This document shows positions 22,571-50,607 of a DNA stretch of 64,000 bases, in pieces. Source of the stretch: Planotetraspora phitsanulokensis (GTDB lineage: Bacteria > Actinomycetota > Actinomycetes > Streptosporangiales > Streptosporangiaceae). The stretch's first letter is position 1. Every line of letters starts with the position of its first letter. The stretch lies in contig NZ_BOOP01000047.1 in the NCBI RefSeq assembly GCF_016863295.1, positions 1-64,000 of the forward strand, written 5' to 3'. The translations under genes were made by a program, and so were the position numbers. The notes under the pieces were generated by a model. That model was given only the letters and a program-made list of their open reading frames with translations. It made no database searches and was not told the origin of the DNA.

Positions 22571-22581
22571 AGGTAATACCA
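22571..22581. promoter_or_regulatory. GntR operator-like site 1
   Basis: AGGTAATACCA, a GGT-N3-ACC palindrome, lies in the promoter region of the ferredoxin remnant and bicupin gene. The 12 bases GGTAATACCATT recur exactly at 48454-48465. Confidence 0.6.
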
Positions 22582-22639
22582 TTCACCTACCTGGGGTCGG
22601 AGCCCTGTGAGGGGAGTACATGGACACGCAGCCACGGCA

Positions 22640-23013
22640 CGCGTTCGAGGTCGCCGCCCCGATCATCGGCGCCGCCCCCATGAAAGTGCTGCACACACGG
22701 AGGCGACAGGAAGCCCCACCCCTGCCCGCTGGAGTGCATCGAGCGCGGCGCATGCCACCCGGCCTGCCCGATCGACGCGATCGTCGGTGACAGGAACCGG
22801 CGAGATGCCCGACAAGGCGCGGGAGCACAGACAGGACAACGCGCCCTTCTTCACGACCGCCTGCCCGGCCATCTCACTCCACCGGGGAGCCCCGGCGGAG
22901 CCACGAAGGTGGGACGGGTAGGCGTGGACACGGAGCTGACGATCCGGCTGGCCGAATCGAAGCAACCGTGGCCCGGGCACCGGTGGCGCACCGGCGCCCG
23001 AGCAGGACGATGA
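22640..23013 (+). pseudogene. 7Fe/8Fe-type ferredoxin pseudogene
   Basis: Three frames carry successive parts of an FdxA-like ferredoxin: PLECIERGACHPACPIDAIV with one cluster Cys changed to Arg, then EMPDKAREHRQDNAPFFTT, then GSPGGATKVGRVGVDTELT running to a TGA at 23011-23013. At least two frameshifts and a lost N-terminus show that it is dead. It would have been the first gene of the aromatic island, upstream of the bicupin gene. Confidence 0.7.
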
Positions 23014-23031
23014 CCGAGAATCGGAGGACCA

Positions 23032-24030
23032 ATGGGCAAGAGCGGACGCGTGTTCGTGCGTGGACTCACCTCGCAGACGTACGGCCTCGGTGAGTTCCGG
23101 CGCCGCCAACTGGCGGTGGACCGGGTGCGTGACGACAGCGTCGTCGTCGACGACGCGAAGGTCGGGCACTCGGGCGACAGCGCGAAGAGCCGGACCTGGT
23201 GGCGGATCGGTCCTGGCGACGAGGACTTCCTCACGCAGACCATCCAGGTCCACTTCGTGGAGCTGCCCCCCGAGTCGTCGAATCACGGCCACGGCCACCA
23301 GAACGAGGCCGCCTTCTACATCCTGGAGGGCAAGGGCTACGAGATCCACGACGACCAGCGCTACGAGTGGAACAAGGACGACCTGGTCTTCGTGCACACC
23401 GACTCGGTGCACCGGCACTTCAACCCGTACCAGGAGCGGGCCGTCGCCCTCGTGGTGAAGGCGAAGTGCACGTGGATGTTCATGGGGCTCATCCAGCAGG
23501 GCCGGTCGGGACCGGTTGAAGAGGAGGAGCGGTTCGGACCCCGTGAGGACTGGTCCCGGATCTGGACGCCTGGAGTCCTCGACCGCAAGAAGGTGATCTC
23601 CCCCGCGGACACGACCTGGCAGGACACCCCGCTGGGGCGGGTCCGCGTCATGTCCTCACCTGAGCGCACGGACGCCCGCATCTTCAGCGTGGACGCCTTC
23701 GAACTCGACATCCCCGCGGGTGGTCACAGCGGCAAGTACTGGAAGATGGCCGACGAGGTCTACTACGTCCTCGAGGGCGGCGGGTACGCGCTCCAGTGGG
23801 AGGTCGAGGCGGAGATCGCGGAGAAGTACTACGCGAGGATCGCCCTGGAGCCAAAGCGCTACGACATCCGGCAGGGCGACACCCTCTATGTCCCGCAGAA
23901 CCACGTCTGCCAGATCTTCGCGGCGGACGGGACCCCGATGCGGCTGTTCAACGCGCAGAACCGCGTCTTCAAGCACCTCGGCTACGACACGGTCCACTAC
24001 TTCGAGCCCGCCTCGAACGCGACGTCGTGA
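23032..24030 (+). CDS. Bicupin protein, putative dioxygenase
   Basis: A 332-residue cytoplasmic protein with two cupin barrels. The first has the metal motif HGHGHQNEAAFYILEGKG (His85, 87, 89, Glu92) and SVHRHF (His127, 129). The second has AGGHSGKYWKMADEVYYVLEGG, split as AGGHSGKYW and MADEVYYVLEGG (His232, Glu242), and His291 in QNHVCQ. Both barrels keep enough ligands to bind metal, unlike many bicupins. ATG 23032 follows GGAGG. The layout resembles gentisate-type and other ring-cleaving bicupins, but overall similarity is too low to name a substrate. In this island, which lacks a LigAB enzyme, it is a candidate ring-cleavage or related oxygenase. Confidence 0.8.
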   Translation: MGKSGRVFVRGLTSQTYGLGEFRRRQLAVDRVRDDSVVVDDAKVGHSGDSAKSRTWWRIGPGDEDFLTQTIQVHFVELPPESSNHGHGHQNEAAFYILEGKGYEIHDDQRYEWNKDDLVFVHTDSVHRHFNPYQERAVALVVKAKCTWMFMGLIQQGRSGPVEEEERFGPREDWSRIWTPGVLDRKKVISPADTTWQDTPLGRVRVMSSPERTDARIFSVDAFELDIPAGGHSGKYWKMADEVYYVLEGGGYALQWEVEAEIAEKYYARIALEPKRYDIRQGDTLYVPQNHVCQIFAADGTPMRLFNAQNRVFKHLGYDTVHYFEPASNATS

Positions 24031-25240: not shown

Positions 25241-25246
25241 GTTTAA

Positions 25247-25257
25247 TGGTATTACCT
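25247..25257. promoter_or_regulatory. GntR operator-like site 2
   Basis: TGGTATTACCT, GGT-N3-ACC core, lies 118 bases upstream of the ferredoxin reductase start. It is the reverse complement of sites 1 and 8 in the core. Confidence 0.6.
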
Positions 25258-25374
25258 AACCGCGGGAGAGGATTCCATGTCACGTATGGACCAGCGGTGT
25301 CGCCCTTGGCGGGCTCAGGATGCGGGGCCATCTCCACGGAGGCGGCCGTTCCGACCCCACTTCCGGGGGGCCCG

Positions 25375-26658
25375 ATGAGCAACGGGACACTGATCGTCGG
25401 CGGCAGCCAGGCCGGCCTGCAAGTGGCCGTGTCCCTGCGGCAGCTCGGCGACACCTCACCGATCATCTTGGTCGGCGAGGAGGATCATCAGCCGTACCAG
25501 CGGCCGCCCCTTTCCAAGGAGTTCCTCGCCGGCGAGGCGGCGCTCGACTCGCTGGCCTTCCGCACGCCCGACTTCTACGCCGACTCCGGAATCGACCTCG
25601 TATGCGGTGAGCGGGTGAGCGAGGTGAGCCTGTCCACGTCGGGCCCGCCGGGCTCAGGAGTCGCTATGACCGCGAGCGGGCGCGAACTGCCCTTCAATCG
25701 GCTGGCGTTGACCGTGGGAGCGGGCGCCAGGCGGCTTCCCCTGCCCGGCGCCGACCTCGGCGGGATCTGCTACCTGCGCGAGTACAACGACGCCGCCGAC
25801 CTGCGGACGCAGCTCTCGACCGCCACGAACGTCGTCGTCGTCGGCGGCGGATTCATCGGCCTGGAGGTGGCCTCGGCGGCCCGCAGCCTCGGACGATCCG
25901 TCACGGTGGTCGAGGCCGCGGAACGGCTGATGGCCCGGTCCGTGGGAACCGTGATCTCCGAGTTCTATCGTCAGGCGCACCTTCGCCGCGGCATCGACGT
26001 CCGGCTCTCGTCCGCGGTGTCCGGCTTCCAGGGGGAACACGGCAGGGTCACCGGCGTCACGTTGTCCGACGGCGCGCGCCTGCCGGCCGATCTGGTCCTG
26101 GTCGCAGTCGGCGTTCTCCCCCGCACGGAGCTCGCCGAACAACTGGGACTCATGTGCGACCAGGGTATCGTCGTCGATGCCCACGCCCGTACCAGCGACC
26201 CTTCCGTCGTCGCCGCCGGCGACTGCACCGTGCAGCCGCACCCGATCACCGGCCAGGGACGGGTACGGCTCGAGTCGGTTCAGAACGCCGTGGCTCAGGC
26301 CCAAGTGGCAGCCGCGACGCTGCTCGGCCGGCTTGACACCGTGATGTCGGTGCCGTGGTTCTGGTCCTACCAGGGTGACCTCAGGTTGCAGATCGCCGGC
26401 CTCGCCGCCGGCTACGACACCCAGGTCGTACGCGGTGACCCGGCTGACGAGCATTTCTCCGTCCTGTACTACCGGCATGACCGGCTGCTGGCCGTTGACG
26501 CCGTCAACCGCCCGGCCGACTACATGACGGTACGCAAGGCCCTCGGCCAGGGAGCGAGCATCGCTCCGGACCGCGCCGCCGATCCCGACATTCCCCTGAG
26601 GTCCCTCGTCGGCGGTCCGGCCCCGGCGGCGCCGGCCGTTCAGCGGGCGGAGGCGTGA
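25375..26658 (+). CDS. FAD-dependent ferredoxin reductase
   Basis: A 427-residue flavoprotein of the rubredoxin/putidaredoxin-reductase type, which passes electrons from NAD(P)H to a 2Fe-2S ferredoxin. The FAD Rossmann motif VGGSQAG is at 8-14, the NAD(P)H motif VVVVGGGFIGLEVA at 153-166, and the second FAD motif VVAAGDC near 285. The C-terminal dimer domain begins at PWFWSYQGDLRLQIAG. ATG 25375 follows GGGGGG. Together with the ferredoxin at 26762 and the oxygenase at 27203 it makes a three-component Rieske system. It has its own predicted GntR operator. Confidence 0.9.
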   Translation: MSNGTLIVGGSQAGLQVAVSLRQLGDTSPIILVGEEDHQPYQRPPLSKEFLAGEAALDSLAFRTPDFYADSGIDLVCGERVSEVSLSTSGPPGSGVAMTASGRELPFNRLALTVGAGARRLPLPGADLGGICYLREYNDAADLRTQLSTATNVVVVGGGFIGLEVASAARSLGRSVTVVEAAERLMARSVGTVISEFYRQAHLRRGIDVRLSSAVSGFQGEHGRVTGVTLSDGARLPADLVLVAVGVLPRTELAEQLGLMCDQGIVVDAHARTSDPSVVAAGDCTVQPHPITGQGRVRLESVQNAVAQAQVAAATLLGRLDTVMSVPWFWSYQGDLRLQIAGLAAGYDTQVVRGDPADEHFSVLYYRHDRLLAVDAVNRPADYMTVRKALGQGASIAPDRAADPDIPLRSLVGGPAPAAPAVQRAEA

Positions 26659-26761: not shown

Positions 26762-27094
26762 ATGGGCACCTTGTCCAAAGTGATCTACATCGACAGCGCC
26801 GGTCGCGAGTACGCCGTGGATGCGACGGTCGGTGACACGGTCATGGCGACCGCGGTCAAGAACGGCGTCCCCGGGATCGTCGCGGAGTGCGGCGGGAACT
26901 GTTCGTGCGCCACCTGCCACGTGTGGGTGAGCGACGAGTTCGCACCTGTTGTGGGGCCTCCCAATGACATGGAGGAGGACCTGCTCGACATGGGGGTCTC
27001 GGAGCGTCGCGGCACCAGTCGCCTCTCATGCCAGATACGCATCACAGCGGCCCTCGACGGTCTGAGGGTGGAGATCCCTCCGGAGCAGCCATGA
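26762..27094 (+). CDS. 2Fe-2S ferredoxin
   Basis: A 110-residue ferredoxin of the putidaredoxin/rhodocoxin class. The cluster ligands are Cys43, Cys49 and Cys52 in ECGGNCSCATCHVW and Cys90 in RLSCQI; an additional Cys47 is present. ATG 26762 follows GAGAGGA closely. It should carry electrons from the reductase encoded just upstream to the Rieske oxygenase encoded next. It is the first gene of the operon that reaches at least to 35581. Confidence 0.92.
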   Translation: MGTLSKVIYIDSAGREYAVDATVGDTVMATAVKNGVPGIVAECGGNCSCATCHVWVSDEFAPVVGPPNDMEEDLLDMGVSERRGTSRLSCQIRITAALDGLRVEIPPEQP

Positions 27095-27202: not shown

Positions 27203-28489
27203 GTGCTAAGGCAGGACATCAACGAGCTTTTGACGCAGACCGGTCCCGGGACGCCGATGGGCGACTTGTTCCGGCAGTACTGGATTCCCGCGCTGCTCGC
27301 CGAGGAACTCCCGGAGAACGACTCACCGCCGGTGCGCGTGAAGCTCCTGTCCGAACGCTTGATCGCCTTCCGCGACAGCGAAGGGCGATATGGCCTTATC
27401 GACGAATTCTGCGCGCACCGCGGCGCTTCGCTGTGGTTCGGTCGCAATGAGGGGTCCGGACTGCGCTGCCCGTACCACGGCTGGAAATACGACGTCACCG
27501 GCCAGTGCATCGAGGTGCCGTCGGAGGCGGACAACAGCAGCTTCTGTGAGAACGTGAAGCTGCGCGCGTACCCGCTGGTCAAGGTCGGCGACGTCCTGTG
27601 GACCCACATGGGCGACCCGGCCAAGCGGCCGGACCTGCCGGAGTTCGAGTTCGCGCACGTTCCGCCGGAGCAGACCTACACCTCCAAACGGTGGCAGCAG
27701 TGCAACTGGCTGCAGGCGTTCGAGGGCGGCATCGACTCCAGCCACGTGACGTTCCTGCACTCCGGCGGCCTGAAGTCCGACCCGTTGTTCAAGGGCGCCA
27801 AGGGCAACGAGTACAACATGAAGGACACCAAGCCGTTCTTCGAGGTCGCCGACAGCGAGGGCGGGCTCTTCGTCGGCGCCCGTCGCAACGCCGAGGAGGG
27901 CAGCTACTACTGGCGGATCACGCCGTACGTGATGCCGGCCTTCACGATGGTGCCGCCACGCGGTGACCACCCGCTGCACGGCCATTTCTGGGTGCCGATC
28001 GACGACGAGAACTGCTGGACGTACTCCTTCGACTACCACCCGGGCCGTCCGCTGACGGCCGCGGAACGCCAGGCCATGATCGACGGCCACGGAGTGCACA
28101 GCAAGAACATCCCGGGGACCTACCGGCCCATGGCCAACATGGACAACGACTACCTGATCGACCGCGAGGCGCAGAAGCGTGGGGAGACCTACTCCGGCGT
28201 GGCGGGCATCGCCATGCAGGACGCCTCCCTGCAGGAGAGCATGGGGCCGATCGTGGACCGTACGAAGGAGCGGCTGGTCCCGGCCGACAGCGGGATCATC
28301 AAGGCCCGTCAGAAACTGCGCAAGGCGGCGATCGCGCTGCGGGACGAAGGCGTGACGCCTCCCGGGGTGGACACGGCGCACCACCGGGTGCGCTCGGCGG
28401 CGGTTGTGCTGCCGCAGGCCGAGTCGTTCCTGGACTCCTGCCGCGACGCGATCAAGGCCACGCCCGGCGTCCCGCACTCGTCGGTCTGA
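27203..28489 (+). CDS. Rieske non-heme iron oxygenase, phthalate 4,5-dioxygenase type
   Basis: A 428-residue oxygenase subunit. The Rieske cluster ligands are Cys70/His72 (FCAHRGASL) and Cys89/His92 (CPYHGWKYD). The mononuclear iron site is GIDSSHVTFLHS with Asp178, His181 and His186. The order of motifs and the C-terminal segment match the single-subunit, alpha-only group that includes phthalate 4,5-dioxygenase and aromatic O-demethylases, so hydroxylation or demethylation of a carboxylated aromatic is expected. GTG 27203 follows AAGGGG. Electron donors are encoded directly upstream. The exact substrate is unknown. Confidence 0.9.
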   Translation: MLRQDINELLTQTGPGTPMGDLFRQYWIPALLAEELPENDSPPVRVKLLSERLIAFRDSEGRYGLIDEFCAHRGASLWFGRNEGSGLRCPYHGWKYDVTGQCIEVPSEADNSSFCENVKLRAYPLVKVGDVLWTHMGDPAKRPDLPEFEFAHVPPEQTYTSKRWQQCNWLQAFEGGIDSSHVTFLHSGGLKSDPLFKGAKGNEYNMKDTKPFFEVADSEGGLFVGARRNAEEGSYYWRITPYVMPAFTMVPPRGDHPLHGHFWVPIDDENCWTYSFDYHPGRPLTAAERQAMIDGHGVHSKNIPGTYRPMANMDNDYLIDREAQKRGETYSGVAGIAMQDASLQESMGPIVDRTKERLVPADSGIIKARQKLRKAAIALRDEGVTPPGVDTAHHRVRSAAVVLPQAESFLDSCRDAIKATPGVPHSSV

Positions 28490-28490
28490 G

Positions 28491-28994: not shown

Positions 28995-29069
28995 CTCGTG
29001 TCCGACACTCCCTAGCGGGCCGGCAGCCGGACCAGGCCACACGATTTGACGGAGGAAGGCGACGGCGAG

Positions 29070-29903
29070 ATGCCGGAGAAGATCACCCTGCGTACCCTGC
29101 AGCGGATGAAGGACGACGGCCGCAAGATCGTCGGTGTCGTGGCCTGGGACTACCAGATCGCCCGCATCGTCGACCGGGCCGGCGTGGACATCGTCTCGGT
29201 GGGCGACACGGTCGGCGTGAACCTGTGGGGGCACTCCAACCCCTTCGAGGTCACGATGGACCAGATGATCCTGGTGACGCAGGCGGTCCGCCGGGGGGTG
29301 AGCAGGGCCCTGCTCAGCGCCGACTTCCCGTTCGGCCCCCTGCAGGAGGGCACGGACAGCGCCGTGCGGGCGGCCATCCGGTTCGTCAAGGAGGCCGGCG
29401 TCGACATGGTCAAGCTGGACGGGGCCTCGGACTTCCTCGACTCCGTCACGGCGATCACTCGTGCGGGCATTCCGGTGTTCGCGCAGTTCGGGATCACCCC
29501 GCAGACCGCGCTGCGCTACGGGGTCGAATACAACGCGATCCCGTCGAGCCACGACCAGGTGCCGGTGGCGATGAAGGACGCTCTGGTCGCCGAGGCCAAG
29601 CGACTGGAGGAGGCGGGCGCCGTACTGCTCAACTTCACCAACTCCGGACCGATCGTCGGAGCCGCCGTCGCCGAGGCCGTCTCCATTCCGGTCGTCGGAG
29701 GATTCGGCGGCGGCCCGTGGCTCGACGGCCGGATGCGCATGGCGCACGCCGCCATCGGCTATGCCGCGTCGGCCATCGACAACCCTCCTGACACCTACGC
29801 GAACGTCGCACGGACAACCCTCGACGCGATCACGGCCTATGCCGAGGACGTGCGCTCCGCACGTCAGGTCGCCGGAGGCATCCCCGTGCCGCCCGCCCCC
29901 TGA
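29070..29903 (+). CDS. Ketopantoate hydroxymethyltransferase-like (PanB-family) protein
   Basis: A 277-residue TIM-barrel protein of the PanB/PEP-mutase superfamily. Family motifs are clear: AWDYQIARIVDRAGVDIVSVGD, read as AWDYQIARI and GVDIVSVGDTVG, LLSADFPFG, and AGIPVFAQFGITPQ. The metal Asp residues are kept, but the third ligand motif reads VKLDG instead of VKLEG, and the segment of the catalytic Glu (usually LLEC) reads LLNFTNSGP. It is therefore unlikely to make ketopantoate and may do another aldol, retro-aldol or C-C lyase step on a pathway intermediate. ATG 29070 with GAAGG upstream is preferred over TTG 29046. Confidence 0.82.
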   Translation: MPEKITLRTLQRMKDDGRKIVGVVAWDYQIARIVDRAGVDIVSVGDTVGVNLWGHSNPFEVTMDQMILVTQAVRRGVSRALLSADFPFGPLQEGTDSAVRAAIRFVKEAGVDMVKLDGASDFLDSVTAITRAGIPVFAQFGITPQTALRYGVEYNAIPSSHDQVPVAMKDALVAEAKRLEEAGAVLLNFTNSGPIVGAAVAEAVSIPVVGGFGGGPWLDGRMRMAHAAIGYAASAIDNPPDTYANVARTTLDAITAYAEDVRSARQVAGGIPVPPAP

Positions 29904-29979: not shown

Positions 29980-30828
29980 ATGCCCACCGCCGTTGTCGAC
30001 GGGATCACCACCCGCTACGAGGTGGCCGGCTCCGGCCCGCCGCTGCTGATGTTCTCTCCCGGCGGTTTCGACTCCAGCCTGGAGAGTTGGCGGACGGTGG
30101 GGATCTACCGGCGCCTGCGGCTGCTCGATCACCTCAGCGAGAAGTACACCTGCATCGCCTTCGACCGGCGGGAGTCGGGCCGGTCCGGCGGCCGGCTGCA
30201 ACGGATCTCGTGGGCCGACTACGTGGCGCAGGGTGTGGGACTACTCGATCATCTGGGCATCGCGCAGGCGCATCTGATCGGCGGCTGCGTCGGCTGCTCC
30301 AGCGTCGCGGCCGTCGGGGTGGCACATCGGGAGCGCGTCCTGAGCATGGTGCTGTACTCGCCGGCGGGCGGGGTGAAATACCGCATGAAGCAGCACGCCC
30401 GGTTCGGCCGGCACCTGGCCTATGCGGGCGCCCACGGCCTGGAACAGGTGGCGGGGCTCGCGAAGATCTCGGACCTGGGTTTCTCCGCGGAGCCCCGGCT
30501 GGGCCCCTGGGCGAGCGTGCTCCGCGGCGATCCGGAGTTCGCCGACATGTACGTGCGTACGGACCCGGACCGCTATCAGGTGCTGGTCAGCGGCATGGCC
30601 CGGCTGCTGTTCGACCGCGACACGGTTCCCGGACCGGAACCGGAGGACCTTCTGCGGCTCGACATCCCCGCGCTCGTGATCCCCGGGCAGGACGACTCAC
30701 ACGCGCCGTCGGCCGCCCGTTACCTCCAGGAGTGCCTCCCACGCGCGGAGTACTGGGACGTCCCGGTGGCCGAGCAGACGGAGGAGACGGCTCCCGCCCG
30801 GATACTGCGGTTCCTGGACGGCGCGTAG
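29980..30828 (+). CDS. Alpha/beta hydrolase with cysteine nucleophile
   Basis: A 282-residue hydrolase. The fold is clear from FSPGGFDSS (oxyanion loop, 25-33), FDRRESGRSGG and the elbow LIGGCVGCSS, where Cys103 stands at the nucleophile position in place of Ser. The acid and His are probably in PGQDDSHAPSA. Cys nucleophiles are known from dienelactone hydrolases, which open lactones in aromatic catabolism, so a lactone or C-C bond hydrolase is a fair guess. ATG 29980 follows GAGGAG. It lies inside the catabolic operon, 76 bases after the PanB-like gene. Confidence 0.82.
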   Translation: MPTAVVDGITTRYEVAGSGPPLLMFSPGGFDSSLESWRTVGIYRRLRLLDHLSEKYTCIAFDRRESGRSGGRLQRISWADYVAQGVGLLDHLGIAQAHLIGGCVGCSSVAAVGVAHRERVLSMVLYSPAGGVKYRMKQHARFGRHLAYAGAHGLEQVAGLAKISDLGFSAEPRLGPWASVLRGDPEFADMYVRTDPDRYQVLVSGMARLLFDRDTVPGPEPEDLLRLDIPALVIPGQDDSHAPSAARYLQECLPRAEYWDVPVAEQTEETAPARILRFLDGA

Positions 30829-30948: not shown

Positions 30949-32067
30949 ATGGCAGAGCAGGTGCTGGCAGCGGTCAGGACCGGGCCCGGCACAACCGAAC
31001 TACGCGAGTTCTCGATGCCGGACATCCCCGACGACGGCGCCCTGCTCAAGGTCGAGGTCGCCGGGATCTGCGGCACTGACGTGAAGATGTACGCCAAGCC
31101 ACCGTTCGCGGATCCGGTGATCATGGGCCACGAGAACGTCGGCGTCATCGTGAAGGCGGGACGCACGTTCGCCGAGCGCAAGGGCCTGAAGGAAGGCGAC
31201 CGCGTTTTCGTCGAGCACTACGTCGGCTGTTTCCGCTGCGATTGGTGCCACCAGGGCGAGTACCGTCACTGCGAGGCGACCGACTGGCGTACCAACCCCG
31301 ACGCCCGCCGCTACGGCTATACCTCCGCGAACAACCCCTACCACCTGTGGGGCGGCTTCTCGCAATACCTCTACCTGCCCTGGAACTCGGTGACGCACCG
31401 CGTTCCAGACGGTGTCTCCGCCGAACTCGCGGGACTGGTGACGCCGCTTTCGAACGGCATCGAGTGGGCGCTGGTCACCGCGGGCGTCGGCTACGCCTCA
31501 ACAGTCCTCATCCAGGGCCCCGGGCAGCAGGGACTGTCCCAGGTCGTCGCCTGCAAGCAGGCCGGCGCCTCCCGCATCATCGTCACCGGGACGACGAGGG
31601 ACACCGCGCGGCTCGCTCTGGCGAAGGAGTTGGGAGCAGACGACGTCATCGACGTCACGCGGGAGGACGCCCTCCAGCGCGTACTGGAGATCACCGGCGG
31701 CAGGGGGGTCGACGTCGTGCTGGACTGCACGGCCGGCGCCGGTACCGCGCCCATCCTGCTCGGCATCGACGCGCTCAAACGCCGCGAGGGCACGATGGTG
31801 GTCCAGGGCGAGCTCGCCGCCTTCCCCGACTTCCCGCTCAAGAAGGTCACAGAGAAGTCCATCAGCATCAAGAGCGCCCGCGGCCACAGTTACCGTTCCT
31901 GTGAGCTCGCCCTCGAACAGCTCGCCTCCGGACGCTTCCCGCTGGAAAAGCTCAGCACCCACAGCTTCGGCCTGAAGGACGTCGACCGCGCCATCCGGAC
32001 CGTCGGCGGCGAGGGTGCCACGGACGTCGTCCATGTCTCCCTGCTGCCCTGGGCGGAGGAAGCGTGA
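30949..32067 (+). CDS. Zinc-dependent alcohol dehydrogenase
   Basis: A 372-residue medium-chain dehydrogenase. Catalytic zinc ligands are Cys41 (GICGTD) and His61/Glu62 (GHEN); structural zinc is held by Cys94, 97, 100 and 108 (VGCFRCDWCHQGEYRHC). The NAD(P)-binding loop is GPGQQG at 190-195. It should oxidise an alcohol or dihydrodiol intermediate, for instance the cis-diol made by the Rieske oxygenase, although such diols are usually handled by other families. Its last bases overlap the next gene by four (ATGA type). A second, broken copy of a related dehydrogenase tail is present near 50.6-50.8 kb. Confidence 0.9.
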   Translation: MAEQVLAAVRTGPGTTELREFSMPDIPDDGALLKVEVAGICGTDVKMYAKPPFADPVIMGHENVGVIVKAGRTFAERKGLKEGDRVFVEHYVGCFRCDWCHQGEYRHCEATDWRTNPDARRYGYTSANNPYHLWGGFSQYLYLPWNSVTHRVPDGVSAELAGLVTPLSNGIEWALVTAGVGYASTVLIQGPGQQGLSQVVACKQAGASRIIVTGTTRDTARLALAKELGADDVIDVTREDALQRVLEITGGRGVDVVLDCTAGAGTAPILLGIDALKRREGTMVVQGELAAFPDFPLKKVTEKSISIKSARGHSYRSCELALEQLASGRFPLEKLSTHSFGLKDVDRAIRTVGGEGATDVVHVSLLPWAEEA

Positions 32068-39373: not shown

Positions 39374-39429
39374 ACCGGCGTCCCTCCACGATCTTGGCGG
39401 ATCCCCCGCGCTCTTCATGTTACCAGGAA

Positions 39430-39440: not shown

Positions 39441-39548
39441 ATACGCTCAGCAACCACCGCCGCCTACCAAGTCGCAACGCCTGGTCGCCCCGATGCGGCG
39501 CCAGACCGGGCCCCGCACACCACTAGCGGCGCACCAACATTGGGCAAA

Positions 39549-42608: not shown

Positions 42609-43757
42609 TCAGTCGACGGGCACGAGCACGAGCTTGGCGGGATCCATCCGCAGATAGACCGTGGTCCCGGGTTCGATCGAGGTCGAGGGGTTTCCGCGTG
42701 TCCTGAGCTCGTGCTTGCCCAGTCCCACCACGTGGTCGAGGCTGTCTCCGAGGTAGGCACGGGTCAGGACCGTGCCCTTCCACTCGTTGGGCACCTCGCC
42801 CGCCCGGGATGTGGTGCTGACCTCCACCGCTTCCGGCCTCACGGACACGATCACGTCGGTGCCGATGGGAAGGGCCGCGGCCGAGTCCAGTACGAGCTGC
42901 CCGTCGGCCGTGTCGACGGTGTATCGATCACCGTCCTTGGCCACCACGTTGCCGGACAGGAAGTTCGACGTACCGATGAACTCGGCGACGAACCGGCAGT
43001 TGGGGTTCTCGTATATCTCGCGGGGGCGGCCGAGCTGTACGACGTTGCCGTCCCGCATGACCGCGATCGAGTTGCTGAGGGCCAGGGCCTCGACCTGGTC
43101 ATGCGTGACGTACACCGAGGTGATGCCGAGCTCGCGCTGCACCCTCTTGAGCTCGTAACGCAGTGACTCCCGCAGTTTCGCGTCGAGGTTGGACAGCGGC
43201 TCGTCGAGCAGCAGGAGCGGAGGTTCGATCACAAGTGCGCGGGCGAGGGCGAGCCGCTGCTGCTGACCACCGGAAAGTTTGGTCGCCTGGCGGTCGGCCA
43301 GGGCGGCGAGCTCCATGGTGTCGAGCACACGCATCACCCGCTCGGAGATCTCCTTACGGCTCACGCGGTCGCCGCGCTTTTTCACCTGCAGGGGGAAGGC
43401 GACGTTGTCGAAAACCGACATGTGCGGCCAGATGGCGTAGGACTGGAAGACCATGCCCAGTCCCCGCTCGTTCGCGGGGATGTTCACCGACTTCTTCCCC
43501 TCACTTGAGGAGAAGAGGACGCGGCCACCGACTTCGATGGTCCCCGAGTCAGGGCGTTCCAGCCCGGCGATCGAGCGTAACGTCGTCGTCTTGCCGCAGC
43601 CCGAGGGACCGAGCAAGGTGAACAGCTGACCGTTCTCGACGGTGAAGTTGACGTCGTTGACCGCGAACACCCGGGCCTCCCGTGGCGCGGACGCGCGCGA
43701 GCTGCGCCGGCGGCGCTCCCCGTCGAAGGTCTTGACGAGGTTGTTGATGCGGAGCAC
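42609..43757 (-). CDS. ABC transporter ATPase, FbpC/PotA type
   Basis: A 382-residue importer ATPase. Walker A GPSGCGKTT is at 50-58, the signature LSGGQQQRLALARAL near 155-169, Walker B LLLLDEPLSNLD near 175-186, and the H-loop YVTHDQVEALAL near 207-218; residues 260-382 are the TOBE regulatory domain. A basic insert (GERRRRSSRASAPREARV) at about 13-30 interrupts the first strands, longer than usual. GTG 43757 follows AGGAGG. It energises the permease encoded 26 bases upstream. Confidence 0.92.
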   Translation of the reverse strand: MLRINNLVKTFDGERRRRSSRASAPREARVFAVNDVNFTVENGQLFTLLGPSGCGKTTTLRSIAGLERPDSGTIEVGGRVLFSSSEGKKSVNIPANERGLGMVFQSYAIWPHMSVFDNVAFPLQVKKRGDRVSRKEISERVMRVLDTMELAALADRQATKLSGGQQQRLALARALVIEPPLLLLDEPLSNLDAKLRESLRYELKRVQRELGITSVYVTHDQVEALALSNSIAVMRDGNVVQLGRPREIYENPNCRFVAEFIGTSNFLSGNVVAKDGDRYTVDTADGQLVLDSAAALPIGTDVIVSVRPEAVEVSTTSRAGEVPNEWKGTVLTRAYLGDSLDHVVGLGKHELRTRGNPSTSIEPGTTVYLRMDPAKLVLVPVD

Positions 43758-43783
43758 CTGTCCTCCTGATAAAGGCCGGTTGT

Positions 43784-45511
43784 TCAGTCCTGCCGGAGCC
43801 CGACCTTGGCGCCGAGCTTGTAGGCGATGATGACGAGCACGGCGAGGGTGAGGACCATGACGACACCGAGTGCCGCCAGCACCGTGAACTGGCCGTTCTC
43901 GTACTGCTCGAAGATGAGAATGGAAAGCACCTCGTTGCCTGGGCTGTAGAGCAGGATCGAGCTCGACAGTTCGCGGAACGAGACCACGAGGATGTAGATC
44001 CACCCGGCCAGGAGGCCGGGCGACAGGAGCGGCAGGAGCACCCTGCGGAACGTCTGCCACCAGCTCGCCCCGCTCACCTGCGCCGACTCCTCCAGTTCAG
44101 CGGAGATCTGGTGCATCGACGTGACCGCGTAGCGCATGCCGTACGGCATGTAGCGCGTGCAGTAGGCGATCAGCAGGATGAAGATCGTGCCGTAGATGGG
44201 GACAGGGCTGCGCAGGTAGACGAACGAGAGCGCGAGCCCCAGCACCAGACCGGGGATCACGAGCGGGACGAACGAGAAGTGGTCCACGAGTTGCCGCCCG
44301 GGAATCCGCGAGCGCACGACTATCCAGGCGCCGACTGCCATCAGGACCATGACGAGCGTTGCCGACCCCAGGCCGAGCACGAGGGAATTCCTCAGCGCCG
44401 TCGTCGCGTCGGAGATGTGGAACAGCTCGCGATAGTTGTCCAGGGACATCGACGCGAAGGCCTCGGTGGAGGGCGCCTGGTAGAACTTGAGCAGCGAGGT
44501 GTAGAGCAGCACGAGCAGCGGCCCGACGACGGTGAGGAAGAAGTACAGCACGATGGCGCCGCCCATGACCGGCCGCCACTTGCCCAACTCCATCGGACGA
44601 GGGCGGAACCCCTTGCCGGTCACCGTCTGGTAGGTCTTGCCCGACCTCCCGACGAGGTTGGAGATCGCGACGCCGATCACCGCCAACACCAGAAGGCCTA
44701 CCGCCAGTGCTCCCGCGGCGGCGAGGTCCGGCGGGTAGGAGCGCAGAACGAAGTAGATGCGGCTGGTGAAGACGTAGATGCCGTTCTGCAGGCCGAGCAG
44801 GGCCGGCACCTCGAAGCTCTCCAGGCTGCGTACGACCATGACGAGCACGGCGGCGACGATCGCGGGGCGCGTCAGCGGGACGGTGATTCGGCGGAAGACC
44901 TGCCACCTGCTGGCCCCGCTCATCAGCGCAGACTCCTCGAGCGAGGGGTCCATCGACCGGAAGGCGGCGACCATGAGGAGGAACACGATGGGCGAAAGGT
45001 GCAGGCCCTCGACCCAGACCATCCCCCACACGGTGAAGACGTCGAGGAACCCCGGGCCGAAGATCGGTTCGATCACCTTGTTGAGCAGGCCGATGTCCGG
45101 GCTCGCCAGGAAGATCCACGCGATGGTGTACAGGATCCCCGGGATGATCAATGGAATGATCGAGGCGGCGAAGAACAGCCCCTTGAACGGGACGTCCGTC
45201 CGGACGTTGAGGTAGGCGAGCGCGGTGCCGACGCACAGCGACAGCACGGCCGCTCCGACCGCGAACCACAGCGAGTTCCCGATCATGCCGCCGACGCGCG
45301 GGTCACCATAGGCACGGGCGAAGCCGCCGAGGGTGAAGCCGTTGGCGTCGAAGAAGGTGCCCCAGATCAGGTAGTACAGGGGTACGAGCGCGAGATAGCC
45401 GATCACGCCGGCGACCACGAGGATGATGATTATCTTGGGGGTCCCCAACCGGCGCAGCCATCCGAGCGCGGCTCCCTTGCGGGCAGGTACGGCGGGAGAT
45501 GCCGCGGTCAT
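43784..45511 (-). CDS. ABC transporter permease, fused FbpB-type (two modules)
   Basis: A 575-residue inner-membrane permease with two binding-protein-dependent transport modules in one chain, about 12 helices. Each module keeps an EAA loop for the ATPase: EESALMSGASRWQVFRRI and EESAQVSGASWWQTFRRV. ATG 45511 follows GAGGTGAGGG. The fused arrangement is typical of Fe3+-, 2-aminoethylphosphonate- and some aromatic-acid importers. With the two binding proteins encoded upstream it probably imports the island's substrate, although iron cannot be excluded. Confidence 0.92.
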   Translation of the reverse strand: MTAASPAVPARKGAALGWLRRLGTPKIIIILVVAGVIGYLALVPLYYLIWGTFFDANGFTLGGFARAYGDPRVGGMIGNSLWFAVGAAVLSLCVGTALAYLNVRTDVPFKGLFFAASIIPLIIPGILYTIAWIFLASPDIGLLNKVIEPIFGPGFLDVFTVWGMVWVEGLHLSPIVFLLMVAAFRSMDPSLEESALMSGASRWQVFRRITVPLTRPAIVAAVLVMVVRSLESFEVPALLGLQNGIYVFTSRIYFVLRSYPPDLAAAGALAVGLLVLAVIGVAISNLVGRSGKTYQTVTGKGFRPRPMELGKWRPVMGGAIVLYFFLTVVGPLLVLLYTSLLKFYQAPSTEAFASMSLDNYRELFHISDATTALRNSLVLGLGSATLVMVLMAVGAWIVVRSRIPGRQLVDHFSFVPLVIPGLVLGLALSFVYLRSPVPIYGTIFILLIAYCTRYMPYGMRYAVTSMHQISAELEESAQVSGASWWQTFRRVLLPLLSPGLLAGWIYILVVSFRELSSSILLYSPGNEVLSILIFEQYENGQFTVLAALGVVMVLTLAVLVIIAYKLGAKVGLRQD

Positions 45512-45596
45512 GCCCTCACCTCTTTCTGAACCAGTCCTGCGGTGATCGCGGGCGCGGCGGCACCGCCGATACCGATGCCGCCGCGCGCTTGGTGAC

Positions 45597-46742
45597 TCAA
45601 TTTCCTTCGACCTGCTCACCGTTGGAGATGACCTGGTCGTATCGCTTGTTCCACTCGTCGCCGTTCTTCGTCAGCTCCTGGACGTCGATCGGGATGATCT
45701 CCACATCCTTGAGGGGATCGTCTCCCTCGACGATGGCGGGGGTGAGCCCCTCCTTCACGAGGACCGCCTGGCCCTCCTGAAGCAGCCAGTCCGTGAACAG
45801 CATCGCCGCGGCGGGATGCTTGGCCGTCTTCATCAGCCCGATGCCGTTGGGGCGGGCGATGACCGGTTCGACGTAGGGCAGGTAGTCGACGGGCGCGCCC
45901 TTGGCCTTGGCCTGTTCGACGATGTAGGAGTAGTTGGAGGCGGCGACTGAGAACTGGCCGGCGGACAACAACTGGCCCTGCACGGTGTGGCCCTTGACGA
46001 CCTTCGCGCCCGTGGCCATGTCGCTGAAGAGCTTGTTGATCTCGTCGTCGGTCTTACCCTGCTTCTTCCAGTACCCGTAGAGGGTCAGGTACCAGTCGGA
46101 GTCGCTGAGCTCCATGGACAGCTTGCCGTCCCACTTGGGGTCGGCGAGGTCCTCCCAGGTCTTCGGCGCCTGGTCCGGAGTGACAAGCTTGGTGTTCCAG
46201 CTCGGCGCGAACAGGTTGAACCGCGTCGCCGTCCATCCCTCCTGCCGACCCGCGTCCGGGACCATGCGGCGCCGCTCACCGTCGTACGTTGCGAGAACGC
46301 CCTCGGTGTTCAGGTCGAACAGTTCGGTCGCGTTGGTCTCCACCACGTCGTTGCCCTGGTAGTGGGCCTTCTGCTCCTGCACGACGCGCTGGAGCACCGT
46401 CTCCGACCCGGCGCGGTAGAGGTTCACCGTAACGTTGTACTGGTCTTCGAAGGCATTGATGACCACGTCGGCCACATCGCTCGTCATGGACGTGTAGAGG
46501 TCGAGCGCGCCTTCCTTCTCGGCGAGCGGGACGAGCTTGTCGCGCCGCTGCTGACCGGTCATGCCGTTGACCTCGGCGTAGAGCTTCTCTGCCGCGGTGG
46601 GCCCGCCGGCGGTCGTGGCCTGTGGTGCGGTGGCCGTGGGCGAGCCTCCGCAGCCTGCGAGCAGGAGCACGAGTGCGGATCCTGAGACTACCGCGCGCTT
46701 CGCGGGCATACGGCGGCCCGACAGGGGGGGTGCGGTGTTCAC
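45597..46742 (-). CDS. ABC extracellular solute-binding lipoprotein A
   Basis: A 381-residue binding lipoprotein of the Fe3+/polyamine-type (class D-like) group. The lipobox LLAGC gives lipidated Cys31. Landmarks are KEGALDLYTSMTSDVADVV, TRFNLFAPSWNTKLV, PKTWEDLADPKWDGKLSME and HPAAAMLFTDWLLQEGQ. GTG 46742 follows AGGAGG and overlaps the stop of the preceding gene by four bases. About half its residues match the next-door paralogue, so the pair arose by duplication. It captures the substrate for the permease encoded 86 bases downstream. Confidence 0.88.
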   Translation of the reverse strand: MNTAPPLSGRRMPAKRAVVSGSALVLLLAGCGGSPTATAPQATTAGGPTAAEKLYAEVNGMTGQQRRDKLVPLAEKEGALDLYTSMTSDVADVVINAFEDQYNVTVNLYRAGSETVLQRVVQEQKAHYQGNDVVETNATELFDLNTEGVLATYDGERRRMVPDAGRQEGWTATRFNLFAPSWNTKLVTPDQAPKTWEDLADPKWDGKLSMELSDSDWYLTLYGYWKKQGKTDDEINKLFSDMATGAKVVKGHTVQGQLLSAGQFSVAASNYSYIVEQAKAKGAPVDYLPYVEPVIARPNGIGLMKTAKHPAAAMLFTDWLLQEGQAVLVKEGLTPAIVEGDDPLKDVEIIPIDVQELTKNGDEWNKRYDQVISNGEQVEGN

Positions 46743-47860
46743 TTGACCTCCTGGCCTGACTGGACGACTTCTTCGTAGAGCGCGTCCCACTTCTTGGGAT
46801 CGTCGAGCATTTCCTTCTCGGGCACGGAAATCGAGGTGAGTCCGGCCAGTGGATCGTTCGCCGTGGGGATCGAGCCGACCCGGAAGGACTCGTGGAGGAT
46901 CTTCTGGCCCTCGGAGAGCTCGTAGTCGACGAACAGCATCGCCGCTGCCGGGTGGACCGCCGTCTTCATCAGGGCCACGCCGTTGGGGCGTATCACGATG
47001 GGCTGGATCGGAGTTCCCGAGGCCGGATGCCAGCTCACCGGGGCGCCCTGGTCGGCGGCCTTGTCTATCGTGTGGCTGTAGGAGGAGGCGGTCAGCGCGA
47101 ACTGTCCCGCAGAGAGCAGCTCACCCTGCGCCGTGTGCCCCTTGGCGATCTTCGCGTTGGCGGCGACCCGCTTGAACAGGTCGCGGACCTCCGCGTCGGT
47201 CTTGCCCTGGTCGAGGTAGTACTTGTACATGGCGGCGAACCAGTCGACGTCGCCGACCTCCAGTGAGATGCGTCCCTTCCACTTCGGGTCGGCGAGCTCC
47301 TCGAACGACTTCGGCTCCTCGCCGGGCTTCACCTTGGTGGTGTTCCAGCCGATCACGAACACGTTGAACCGGGTGGCGGTCCAGCCGTCGGCCTGGCCCT
47401 CCTTGCGTACGGCGTCGCGCAGCGCGCCTTCGTACGGGTAGAGCATCTTCTGGTCGTTCATGATGTTGAGCTCGCCGGCGTTCGTCTCGACGAGATCGTT
47501 GCCGTCGTAGTTCGCCTGCTGCTCTTGAATCACGCGCTGAAGGACCGACTCGGAGTTACCCCGATAGACCTGCACGTCGATTGGGTACGCCTTCTCGAAC
47601 CCGTCGATGACCTTGTCCAGGTCGGTGTTCGAGGTGTAGATCGAAAGGGTGCCCTCCTTCTTCGCGAGATCGAGGAGGGTCTTGGTCCGTTCGTCACTGG
47701 TGAGCCCGTTGATGCGGTCGTAAACCTGCTGAGCTTTCGTGCTGGAATTGTTGGCTCCGTTGGCCGCAGGGCCTCCAGCGGTCGGCGAGGCGCCACAGGC
47801 CCCAAGGAAGAGGACGACGGCGGCCGCAGCCACCGATCCGAGGATTCTCTGGTGTTGCAT
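46739..47860 (-). CDS. ABC extracellular solute-binding lipoprotein B
   Basis: A 373-residue paralogue of binding protein A. The lipobox FLGAC gives Cys22. Shared motifs are KEGTLSIYTSNTDLDKVI, VLQRVIQEQQANYDGNDLVE, WTATRFNVFVIGWNTTKV and HPAAAMLFVDYELSEGQ. ATG 47860 follows GGGAGAG. It is the second gene of the importer operon, 83 bases after a small unknown gene. Two binding proteins for one permease suggest two related ligands or a duplication in progress. Confidence 0.88.
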   Translation of the reverse strand: MQHQRILGSVAAAAVVLFLGACGASPTAGGPAANGANNSSTKAQQVYDRINGLTSDERTKTLLDLAKKEGTLSIYTSNTDLDKVIDGFEKAYPIDVQVYRGNSESVLQRVIQEQQANYDGNDLVETNAGELNIMNDQKMLYPYEGALRDAVRKEGQADGWTATRFNVFVIGWNTTKVKPGEEPKSFEELADPKWKGRISLEVGDVDWFAAMYKYYLDQGKTDAEVRDLFKRVAANAKIAKGHTAQGELLSAGQFALTASSYSHTIDKAADQGAPVSWHPASGTPIQPIVIRPNGVALMKTAVHPAAAMLFVDYELSEGQKILHESFRVGSIPTANDPLAGLTSISVPEKEMLDDPKKWDALYEEVVQSGQEVK

Positions 47861-47943
47861 TGATGCTCTCCCGCGAGCTCGGCGAGTCGGTGTGAGCCCC
47901 GACCCGGCGGATGCACGTTTCTCCCCCCCGCGAGAAATACTGT

Positions 47944-48177
47944 TTAAATCACGCCCATGCCGGACTGGGTCAGGTTGAAGCGCTGGTGCCACGGCCGGCG
48001 CGGGGGCGCGATGTCACGCCAGGGGCGTTCCGGCAGATCCATCCTCCGCAGGTCGCACGGGAGCGCGAGTCCCTTGAGCGGAGCATTCTCCCCGTTGAAC
48101 TCGTCACGAGCGGCGATCTCCGACAGGTCCCGGTTCCGCTCGTTGGCCGGCACTCCGGGCAGATCGTCATCGCGCAT
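47944..48177 (-). CDS. Small unknown protein heading the importer operon
   Basis: A 77-residue soluble protein without a recognised domain. The coding call rests on an excellent AAGGAGGG box seven bases before ATG 48177, on its position 49 bases downstream of a GGT-N3-ACC palindrome and on the following operon. It is rich in Arg, Asp and Pro, with NERNRDLSEIAARDEF and PWHQRFNLTQSG as notable stretches. There is no signal peptide or membrane helix. A regulatory or enzyme-helper role is open. Confidence 0.65.
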   Translation of the reverse strand: MRDDDLPGVPANERNRDLSEIAARDEFNGENAPLKGLALPCDLRRMDLPERPWRDIAPPRRPWHQRFNLTQSGMGVI

Positions 48178-48452: not shown

Positions 48453-48463
48453 AGGTAATACCA
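48453..48463. promoter_or_regulatory. GntR operator-like site 8
   Basis: AGGTAATACCA, identical to site 1 including the following T, lies 29 bases upstream of the MFS start at 48492. Confidence 0.6.
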
Positions 48464-48491
48464 TTAGCCTCATTCGGGGAGGAGGCTCTCG

Positions 48492-49745
48492 GTGGGCTCA
48501 GCAGGTGACACGTTCCTCGTCCGATCCCGCACAGCCCATCGGCGTGTGTTCCGCTCACTCACCGTGCCCAACTACCGACGTTTCTTCGCCGGTCACGCGG
48601 TGAGCGTGATCGGAACCTGGATGCAGCGGGTTGCGCAGGACTGGCTGGTGCTCGAACTGACAGACTCCCCCGTCGCACTCGGGATCTCGACCGCGCTGCA
48701 GTTCCTGCCCACCCTCTTGTTCGGCCTGTGGGGAGGCGTCCTCGTCGACCGGCTCGACCGGCGCCGCACGATCATGGCGACGCAGGCGGCCAGCGCCGTC
48801 CTCGCGGCCGCCCTCGCGGTCCTCGTGCTGAGCGACCTGGTGCAGCTCTGGATGGTCTACGCGCTCACCCTCGGGCTCGGTTTCGTCACCGTGCTCGACA
48901 CGCCCGCGCGACAGGCCTTCATCACCGAGATGGTCAGTCCGGAGAACTACGTGAACGCGCAGGCCCTGAACTCGACGGTGCACAATGCCGGCCGCCTCGT
49001 CGGCCCTGCTGTCGCCGGGGTCCTGATCGCGACCGTCGACGTCGGTGCGGCATTCGCGGTCAACGCGCTGTCGTTCGCGGCGGTCCTGCTCGGGCTCGCG
49101 CGCATGAACCCCAAGGAACTGCACCGGGTTCCGGCCCTTCCCCGAGCGAAGGGTCAGGCCAGGCAGGGCCTGCGATATGTCTGGGAGCACCCGGAGTTAC
49201 GCGCGTGCCTGTTCCTCGTCGCCGTGGTGGCGCTGCTCGGGCAGAACTTCCGCGTCGTGTTCCCCCTGCTCGCCCGCGAGACCTTCGGCGGAGGCCCCGA
49301 GGTCTACGGCTGGCTCACGTCCGCTCTCGGAGTCGGCGCAGTGCTCGGTGCCCTCGCGAGCGCCGCGCGCGTGGACGCCACCGCGTGGTCTCTGCTGCTG
49401 TGGACGTTCGCCTTCGCCGGCGTGAACGTCGCCGCCGCGGCCGCTCCCGCACTCGCCCTGGCGATGGCGGCGATCGTCGCTCTCGGTATCGCGAACATCT
49501 GCTTCAACACGCTCGCCCGCACGCTGTTGCAGATCAGGACGGATCCCACCTTGCAGGGACGGGTGATCGCCCTGCACAGCCTGGTCTTTCTCGGAAGCAC
49601 TCCCCTGGGAGCCCCGATCACGGGGTGGGTGTGCGAGCAGTGGGGACCTCGTGCCGGGCTCCTGCTGGCCGGGATCTCGGCGGGGCTGGCAGGCCTCGCG
49701 GTGTTGCCGTGGTTGCGGAAGGTGCGCGCCCGGCGCGAGGAGTGA
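48492..49745 (+). CDS. MFS exporter, EntS/DHA3-like
   Basis: A 417-residue 12-helix transporter related to the one at 41131. NYRRFFAGHAVSVIGTWMQR, WGGVLVDRLDRRRTIM (motif A) and VLDTPARQAFITEMV are diagnostic. GTG 48492 follows GAGGAGG. It is the only gene of its unit and carries a GntR-type palindrome close to the start. Export of pathway intermediates or uptake-linked counterflow is possible; substrate unknown. Confidence 0.87.
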   Translation: MGSAGDTFLVRSRTAHRRVFRSLTVPNYRRFFAGHAVSVIGTWMQRVAQDWLVLELTDSPVALGISTALQFLPTLLFGLWGGVLVDRLDRRRTIMATQAASAVLAAALAVLVLSDLVQLWMVYALTLGLGFVTVLDTPARQAFITEMVSPENYVNAQALNSTVHNAGRLVGPAVAGVLIATVDVGAAFAVNALSFAAVLLGLARMNPKELHRVPALPRAKGQARQGLRYVWEHPELRACLFLVAVVALLGQNFRVVFPLLARETFGGGPEVYGWLTSALGVGAVLGALASAARVDATAWSLLLWTFAFAGVNVAAAAAPALALAMAAIVALGIANICFNTLARTLLQIRTDPTLQGRVIALHSLVFLGSTPLGAPITGWVCEQWGPRAGLLLAGISAGLAGLAVLPWLRKVRARREE

Positions 49746-49905
49746 CCGGTCAGTCGAGCCCGGCCAGACGCGGCCGGGCCCAAGGAACGCGTGATGGACA
49801 GGTCAGTCGATCGCGAGCCCGGTCAGACGCGGACGGCGCAGGGCGCGCGTGACGGACAGGTCAGTCGAGCGCCAGCCCGGCCAGCCGCAGCCTGGCGACA
49901 TGGTG
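49746..49905 (-). repeat. Three successive copies of an aldolase gene 3' end
   Basis: Three segments of about 55 bases each begin with GGTCAGTCGA (near 49748, 49800 and 49859 on the plus strand). Read leftwards they encode RLRLAGLALD, RRPRLTGLAID and ARPRLAGLD, each followed by TGA. The first is the true end of the aldolase gene; the other two are diverged copies of that end lying directly behind it. Confidence 0.65.
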
Positions 49906-50607
49906 ACGCCAGATGTTCACGTCGTTGAACGACGAGCCAAGGTCGGGAAGCTCCGCGATGTCCTCTGCGGAGAGGTCCGCGGCCCGGTCACCGAGCCGTG
50001 CCCGCTCGACGCTGACGCGGGCCAGTACGTCCAGGCTCAACGCCCGCGAGACGGCCTGCTCCACCGCGTGCTCACCCGACCCGAGCGTGGTGATCCCGTG
50101 CCCCCGCATGACGCACACGGCTGACCCTCCCATGGCATCGGCCAACTCCCGTCCCAGTTCCGGGCGCCGGACGAGGACGGCCCTGGGGTAGACGGGGACG
50201 CCGTCCAGGGCCATCCGTGCCGCGGGGATGTTGTAGGCGCCGAAGACCGGCCGCAACGGGATCTCCTCAACGCCCGCGACCAGGATCGACGGGGGGTGGC
50301 AATGGAGTACGACATCGACGTCGGGGCGGGCGCGCAACACCTCAGCGTGGATGGGCAACTCGTTCGGGACCGCCCAGGGGCCGAGATCGCCGCCCTCGCC
50401 CCCGAAGTCGACCAGTCGCACGTCGTCGTCGAGGGTGAACAGCAGTCCCTCTTCCTGTGGGCCACGGCAGCGCACCAGCATCGTGTCGGGTCCGACACGC
50501 ACGCTCACGTGACCCAGGATGTCCTCCGCGAGCCCGGCGTTCGCCAGGATTCGGCAGGCCAGCGCGATCTTGCGACGCAGAGGGGTGAGGTCGTCAGGGA
50601 GCGTCAT
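49861..50607 (-). CDS. Class II aldolase/adducin-family protein
   Basis: A 248-residue zinc-dependent aldolase-fold protein. VVLHCHPPSILV gives the HxH zinc pair (about 113-115) and CVMRGHGITTLG the third His near 175; the N-terminal ILGHVSVRVGP is conserved. The family includes L-fuculose-phosphate aldolase and decarboxylases of hydroxylated aromatic acids, and the lack of sugar-phosphate context here favours a decarboxylase or aldolase of the island. ATG 50607 has GGAG seven bases upstream. It follows a chimeric remnant whose end it overlaps. Confidence 0.85.
   Translation of the reverse strand: MTLPDDLTPLRRKIALACRILANAGLAEDILGHVSVRVGPDTMLVRCRGPQEEGLLFTLDDDVRLVDFGGEGGDLGPWAVPNELPIHAEVLRARPDVDVVLHCHPPSILVAGVEEIPLRPVFGAYNIPAARMALDGVPVYPRAVLVRRPELGRELADAMGGSAVCVMRGHGITTLGSGEHAVEQAVSRALSLDVLARVSVERARLGDRAADLSAEDIAELPDLGSSFNDVNIWRHHVARLRLAGLALD

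Follow-up and report, generated by a model that had tools for sequence, protein, structure and literature searches.

A conserved gene module in Planotetraspora phitsanulokensis predicted to carry an aromatic polycarboxylic acid to 4-oxalomesaconate without LigAB

We analyzed a 64,000-nucleotide stretch (the window; positions 1 to 64,000 of contig NZ_BOOP01000047.1) of the 9.17 Mb, 95-contig genome of Planotetraspora phitsanulokensis, in which an island of genes encodes LigK and LigJ together with a Rieske oxygenase, its ferredoxin and ferredoxin reductase, a PanB-like protein, an alpha/beta hydrolase, a zinc-dependent dehydrogenase, relatives of dihydroxyphthalate decarboxylases, two bicupins, a EutA-like ATPase and an ATP-binding cassette (ABC) transporter (Table 1). 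Thirty open reading frames (ORFs) of the window were scanned with Pfam (31 with the small 167-aa protein) and 20 with NCBIfam. An earlier note on this DNA had recognized LigJ, LigK and both bicupins, and had proposed that a bicupin opens a gallate-like ring directly to 4-oxalomesaconate; absent from it were the two decarboxylase relatives, PhtC, the small gene 3' of the Rieske gene, and the likely roles of the dehydrogenase and the hydrolase. From gene content, conservation and active-site residues, we consider it probable that the island encodes a shared module for breaking down an aromatic polycarboxylic acid, which would pass via protocatechuate to 4-oxalomesaconate without LigAB, an estimate that leaves aside the assignment of bicupin 2.

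The matches to curated families and solved structures make the identities of LigK and LigJ certain. LigK scores 358.5 bits against NF006731 (cut-off 179) and 332.5 bits against TIGR02798 (cut-off 304.5) and matches PDB 3noj at E 4e-83, while LigJ matches the 4-oxalomesaconate hydratase of PDB 6dxq over its full length at E 3e-146. The statement that the island holds no LigAB was likewise borne out: LigB, LigA and GFO/IDH/MocA (LigC-type) domains had no match among the 30 ORFs scanned with Pfam, three LigB proteins searched by tblastn against the whole window gave no match at E<=1, and neither LigC nor LigI was seen among these ORFs, of which the sole Amidohydro_2 protein is LigJ itself, in a search for LigC and LigI that was confined to these window ORFs. 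For LigAB elsewhere in the genome, which the earlier note had left to be checked, no close LigB was found, and a scan with PF02900 (LigB family) returned one match, on contig C41. This distant protein is not counted as a LigAB-type protocatechuate dioxygenase, because it reaches 125 bits where the NF009901 cut-off is 290 and matches the PDB LigB at E 2.8e-17. PF07746 (LigA) had no match in the host genome, but equally none in any control genome, and is hence uninformative. On C41 (L002 8331-9553, minus strand), the LigB-like gene is followed by an ORF that by eye appears LigA-like and lies beside one that by eye appears citryl-CoA-lyase-like.

The Rieske oxygenase points to the substrate. Its nearest solved relative, isophthalate dioxygenase (IPDO; entries 9ina/9ioy), lost activity when R234 or H257 was replaced, and its F249 was changed to His by the authors to bind an ortho carboxylate, as stated in PMC12445078. 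Pocket residues were mapped by counting along the alignment, and each residue named there fell on the right letter. The window protein keeps the R234 and H257 equivalents and has Arg at the 249 equivalent, its residue 253. Both anchors are kept in 31/31 orthologues with letters at these sites, and Arg occupies the 249 equivalent in 31/31 orthologues of >60% identity having a letter there, a count that leaves out one row without the site and two rows below 60% (L038 with Tyr, L097 with Arg). Because both carboxylate anchors are kept and an Arg is added, the substrate is predicted to carry a third acid group, as in a benzene tricarboxylate such as trimellitate; we infer that trimellitate fits best, since an isophthalate-dioxygenase-like attack and decarboxylation would give 4,5-dihydroxyphthalate, on which the next enzyme family acts. 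Two relatives examined from Rhodococcus and Arthrobacter (57-58% identity) have Phe at the 249 equivalent and belong to four-gene plasmid operons (L143 12001-15987 and L144 10001-14004) that resemble isophthalate operons; one of these adjoins what we presume, from its layout, to be terephthalate genes.

Both decarboxylase relatives match the solved 4,5-dihydroxyphthalate decarboxylase 9jp7 and, together with PhtC, point to a protocatechuate rather than a gallate intermediate. In two plasmid records, similar proteins (L141 24439-25308 and L142 23281-24141) carry the annotation phosphate ABC transporter substrate-binding protein. The Cys nucleophile of the alpha/beta hydrolase is kept in 32 of the 33 rows having a letter, and its Asp and His in 35/35, a conservation that fits a lactonase role, for example on 2-pyrone-4,6-dicarboxylate.

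The dehydrogenase was at first favored as a LigC analogue from its clustering with LigJ, a reading weakened by zinc-dehydrogenases that adjoin Rieske genes elsewhere. The Rhodococcus and Arthrobacter plasmid operons run in the order Rieske, zinc-dehydrogenase, 168-175 aa protein and reductase, with a dehydrogenase 31-35% identical to the module enzyme directly 3' of the Rieske gene, and because of this order the module enzyme is probably the dihydrodiol dehydrogenase of the Rieske step. Moreover, relatives of the module dehydrogenase at 42-48% identity adjoin Rieske genes in several genomes. A CobW-type metallochaperone gene adjoins the module dehydrogenase in four Proteobacteria (L124 6660-7739, L127 6563-7627, L052 14478-15500 and L068 5014-6072). 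The PanB-like protein keeps the metal Asp residues, and the residues that we take to be catalytic in PanB are changed throughout, on which ground it was rejected as a true PanB; in L083 and L067 an HpcH/HpaI aldolase occupies its operon slot.

To assess conservation of the module, we scanned GTDB genomes with a bicupin 2 alignment, which gave at least 573 relatives, and kept the best 80 as loci, scoring gene presence by tblastn (E<=1e-6, any identity). The hosts of these best 80 loci include Planotetraspora (bicupin 2 97% identical), Streptomyces, Actinomadura, Mycobacterium, Limnohabitans, Pseudomonas agarici, Cohnella and Halalkalibacterium. Fifty loci are at least 15 kb long, and among them an ABC permease occurs in 30, the Rieske oxygenase in 29 and LigJ in 19; the 19 with LigJ hold the hydrolase (18), the Rieske oxygenase, dehydrogenase and second decarboxylase (17 each), and LigK, the first decarboxylase and the PanB-like gene (15 each). 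At least three of the eight catabolic module genes are found in 23 of the 80 loci. Pseudomonas agarici carries, on one contig and within about 23 kb, the dehydrogenase, LigK, LigJ, PanB-like protein, hydrolase, bicupin 2, EutA-like protein, both decarboxylases and the Rieske oxygenase. By these matches, the island is a conserved catabolic module widely shared across unrelated bacteria.

Whole-genome counts were made in 48 genomes drawn from the 80 loci. The Rieske oxygenase is present in all 48 and in the host genome (at 51-52% in G418, G419 and G435), LigJ in 44 (four as incomplete matches), the dehydrogenase in 40 at >=63% identity with six more at 42-48%, and the PanB-like gene in 33 at >=59% (one a fragment). 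A LigB at E<1e-70 occurs in 18 genomes and a weaker match (1e-26 to 1e-30) in three others, leaving 30 of the 48 without a close LigB; the dehydrogenase is found in 28/28 of the genomes that have LigJ and lack a close LigB. The family check of the close LigB proteins covered those of G415 and G398 (2 of 18), both of which lie above the class III beta-subunit cut-off. Pseudomonas agarici, an Acidocella metagenome-assembled genome, Rhizobiales dw_265 and Streptomyces F-5122 each have one LigB-family protein, nearest to 4,5-DOPA dioxygenase though under the model cut-off, and eight further LigB-family matches from the Streptomyces group and Actinomadura are 72-88% identical to the DOPA-dioxygenase type.

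The earlier note had looked to the bicupins for ring cleavage. Bicupin 1 keeps its H87, H89 and H127 in 21/25 rows (the remaining four do not cover them), and is present in only three of the 19 LigJ-containing loci of at least 15 kb; it is not a core member and was ruled out as the missing enzyme. Bicupin 2 does belong to the module, and a close LigB is missing here and in 30/48 genomes, which lends the earlier interpretation partial support. It has a bicupin fold with an intact three-His metal site in the C-terminal cupin. The comparison with gentisate dioxygenases suggested by the earlier note showed a bicupin fold like that of gentisate and salicylate dioxygenases, at 10-16% identity; because Foldseek ranks oxalate decarboxylase first and VIA ranks salicylate dioxygenase first, the fold alone does not settle the function.

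The usual neighbor of bicupin 2 is the EutA-like gene (47 of the 50 loci of at least 15 kb), whose product in the window does not reach the NCBIfam EutA cut-off (301 vs 598 bits). EutB, the ethanolamine ammonia-lyase, was not found in the host genome and is present in 6/49 genomes, including Pseudomonas agarici. Nickel genes occur near bicupin 2 in 8/80 loci vs 0/40 control segments (p 0.05, with controls from a few hand-chosen genomes and case loci of varying length), all eight in Pseudomonadota and five of them in Burkholderiales; nickel-gene probes had no match in the window, and the link is suggestive only. A Phyllobacterium zundukense plasmid (L142 6911-11293) has, next to the Rieske genes, a row of adjacent genes for NikR, a nickel/cobalt transporter, EutA and a cupin that shares 34% identity with bicupin 2.

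The substrate, the order of steps and the role of the hydrolase are what we infer from these families and their neighborhoods. An aromatic polycarboxylate would first be taken up, and the Rieske oxygenase and zinc-dehydrogenase would convert a benzene tricarboxylate (trimellitate being predicted) to a dihydroxyphthalate, from which the decarboxylases (at 33817 and 39661, and PhtC) would form protocatechuate. The protocatechuate ring would then undergo 4,5-cleavage by an enzyme other than LigAB, for which bicupin 2 with its EutA-like partner is the best candidate within the module, a tentative prediction that we rate somewhat below even. The resulting lactol would go to the lactone by a step to which no enzyme is assigned, the Cys-hydrolase may open the lactone to 4-oxalomesaconate, and LigJ and LigK would yield pyruvate and oxaloacetate. 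A stronger version of the bicupin 2 assignment would make the protein a nickel-dependent dioxygenase that cleaves the ring of a protocatechuate-type catechol and relies on its own EutA-type ATPase for reactivation, so that the ATPase would serve a cupin and not a B12 enzyme. It and the Cys-lactonase would then stand in for LigAB and LigI in a pathway for trimellitate found in Actinomycetota, Pseudomonadota and other phyla. This version is speculative and in our estimate rather doubtful.

Several observations weigh against parts of this scheme, and those that concern bicupin 2 open it to another explanation. Among 396 evenly sampled genomes of the phylum, the dehydrogenase reaches >=74% identity in five, of which four also carry bicupin 2 (>=79%); the fifth, G074, has no bicupin-2 match at E<=1e-10, despite the Rieske oxygenase, PanB-like protein, hydrolase, second decarboxylase (DHPDC2), dehydrogenase, LigK and LigJ, in a cluster next to P450 and aldehyde dehydrogenase genes. 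Similarly, a Rhizobium WYJ-E13 plasmid (the chromosome lay outside the search) has no bicupin-2 or EutA match, despite the Rieske oxygenase, hydrolase, RraA, dehydrogenase, LigJ and a DHPDC2-like gene, and in 18 of the 48 genomes bicupin 2 coexists with a close LigB. These clusters without bicupin 2, and the genomes that also have LigB, suggest that bicupin 2 may act upstream: with its EutA-like partner it could work ahead of the Rieske step or alongside it, e.g., on a precursor or a metal complex imported by the transporters (the ABC permease often accompanies it, as noted above), with an unlinked enzyme opening the ring. Seven genomes, however, offer no candidate for an unlinked enzyme of class III: in Pseudomonas agarici (G417), G400, G405, G406, G399, G414 and G416, the one LigB-family protein found in each is nearest the DOPA-dioxygenase type, in a search that did not include type I extradiol enzymes. 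Moreover, G074 itself holds a class III dioxygenase gene about 70 kb from the cluster, and the Rhizobium evidence is from a plasmid only. We regard a step of bicupin 2 before the Rieske enzyme as possible and nearly as likely as ring cleavage. The unassigned class III gene of G074 belongs to a phthalate-like cluster (L137 6009-11395) that also contains a relative of PhtC (48%), a GFO/IDH dehydrogenase and an ORF of Rieske-like type.

Two further sources of ring cleavage have less in their favor. The LigB-like/LigA-like pair on C41 exists and is weakly similar to LigB, but its LigB-like protein falls far under every family cut-off compared, it lies on a separate contig, and the seven module genomes named above show only a DOPA-dioxygenase-type protein, making this pair an improbable ring opener. 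Direct cleavage of a gallate-type trihydroxybenzoate to 4-oxalomesaconate by a bicupin, as originally proposed, would make LigC and LigI functions unnecessary, and it agrees with the presence of LigJ and LigK, the absence of a close LigB and a fold that resembles gentisate and salicylate dioxygenases. Yet no hydroxylase toward a trihydroxybenzoate was recognized among the window ORFs scanned, the Rieske oxygenase has a polycarboxylate-type pocket, and the dihydroxyphthalate decarboxylases and conserved Cys-hydrolase would be left idle; direct gallate cleavage is thus unlikely, the least probable of the readings weighed here, and the best reading is a LigAB-free pathway in which a polycarboxylate is degraded via protocatechuate to 4-oxalomesaconate.

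The polycarboxylate scheme has difficulties of its own beyond bicupin 2. As the 48 genomes had been picked for bicupin 2, its presence in all of them is uninformative and says nothing on a requirement for it. In some LigB genomes (e.g., G423, G433, G434 and G440) no more than a few kb separate LigJ from LigB, so that part of the LigJ count represents the classical operon. The mutual exclusion of dehydrogenase and LigB is only partial, with a close LigB in 12/40 genomes that have the dehydrogenase vs 6/8 that do not (Fisher p 0.04, relatedness not corrected). The L038 Rieske oxygenase, 58% identical, has Tyr in place of Arg at the 249 equivalent. Should the dehydrogenase belong to the Rieske step, the island would be left without an assigned LigC-like enzyme for lactol oxidation; nor does the proposed scheme include a role for the PanB-like, RpiB-like and phosphoglycerate-mutase genes. 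The latter two (40671-41126 and 34841-35581) travel with several actinomycete versions of the operon.

Table 1. Genes of the island and its surroundings in the window, with strand and basis of assignment.
Feature	Position	Strand	Basis and remarks
Bicupin 1	23032..24030	+	Pfam Cupin_2 and Cupin_1; metal motif H87, H89, H127 in N-terminal cupin; outlying member
Ferredoxin reductase of Rieske system (AndAa/HcaD type)	25246..26658	+	Pfam, NCBIfam; under NCBIfam cut-offs
2Fe-2S ferredoxin	26762..27094	+	Pfam
Rieske oxygenase	27203..28489	+	Nearest solved relative isophthalate dioxygenase 9ina/9ioy
Small conserved protein, 167 aa	28491..28994	+	No Pfam family; directly 3' of Rieske gene; relatives in 23/80 loci
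PanB-like TIM barrel	29046..29903	+	Pfam/NCBIfam and alignment; metal Asp kept
Alpha/beta hydrolase, candidate lactonase	29980..30828	+	Pfam/NCBIfam and alignment; Cys nucleophile (GGCxG); start inferred
Zn-dependent dehydrogenase, probable cis-dihydrodiol dehydrogenase of Rieske oxygenase	30949..32067	+	Pfam and operon comparison
LigK, 4-carboxy-4-hydroxy-2-oxoadipate aldolase	32064..32753	+	NF006731, TIGR02798, PDB 3noj
LigJ, 4-oxalomesaconate hydratase	32791..33813	+	PDB 6dxq
4,5-Dihydroxyphthalate decarboxylase relative	33817..34809	+	PDB 9jp7, E 5e-93; no Pfam family
Phosphoglycerate mutase (dPGM)	34841..35581	+	NCBIfam; present in several actinomycete operon versions
Bicupin 2	35721..36836	+	Cupin_2 and Cupin_1; three-His site intact in C-terminal cupin (H243, H245, H288), plus H290
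EutA-like ASKHA ATPase	36949..38520	+	Usual bicupin 2 neighbor; start codon inferred
GntR/FCD regulator	38591..39457	-	Pfam
Second dihydroxyphthalate-decarboxylase-like protein	39661..40608	+	PDB 9jp7, E 1.5e-33
RpiB-like isomerase	40671..41126	+	Adjoins second decarboxylase gene in several actinomycetes
ABC transporter: ATPase, permease, two substrate-binding proteins	42609..47992	-	Pfam/NCBIfam
PhtC-type 3,4-dihydroxyphthalate decarboxylase	49861..50637	-	315.7 bits vs cut-off 200
GntR/FCD regulator	51055..51840	+	Pfam

The module resembles several known systems in part. Like the protocatechuate 4,5-cleavage pathway (LigABCIJK, PmdABCD and the Arthrobacter pcm genes), it has LigJ and LigK and would end in pyruvate and oxaloacetate, whereas its genome lacks a close LigB, LigC and LigI are not among the island ORFs scanned, and a Cys alpha/beta hydrolase is present. 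Its Rieske oxygenase is nearest IPDO of the Comamonas testosteroni isophthalate pathway, with both essential carboxylate-binding residues kept, but the island has Arg at the F249 position, a zinc-dehydrogenase and dihydroxyphthalate decarboxylase relatives. These relatives, of the 4,5- and 3,4-types, recall the phthalate 4,5- and 3,4-dioxygenase pathways, from which the island differs in a Rieske oxygenase nearest the isophthalate and not the phthalate enzyme and in decarboxylase paralogues within one island. In salicylate dioxygenase the intact His triad lies in the N-terminal cupin; bicupin 2 differs from the salicylate and gentisate 1,2-dioxygenases in its low identity, its intact C-terminal triad and the EutA-like ATPase usually nearby. 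Riboflavin/lumichrome catabolism (Lum enzymes), as described in PMC12746152, shares the logic of a dioxygenase forming a pyrone, a pyrone hydrolase, a hydratase and an aldolase, but it acts on another substrate with different genes, its P450 and xanthine-oxidase genes not being seen among the island ORFs scanned, and it was set aside as an explanation of the island.

Among the literature matches listed for cupin, EutA, nickel, dihydroxyphthalate, 4-oxalomesaconate and trimellitate, there was no description of this module and no trimellitate gene set. In the module a cupin is joined with a EutA-like ATPase and, in certain lineages, with nickel genes; this combination was not described among these matches. 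Aromatic polycarboxylates are components of plasticizers and products of humic matter and black carbon. For this class of compounds, the module offers a substrate prediction drawn from active-site residues and what would be a LigAB-free entry to 4-oxalomesaconate.

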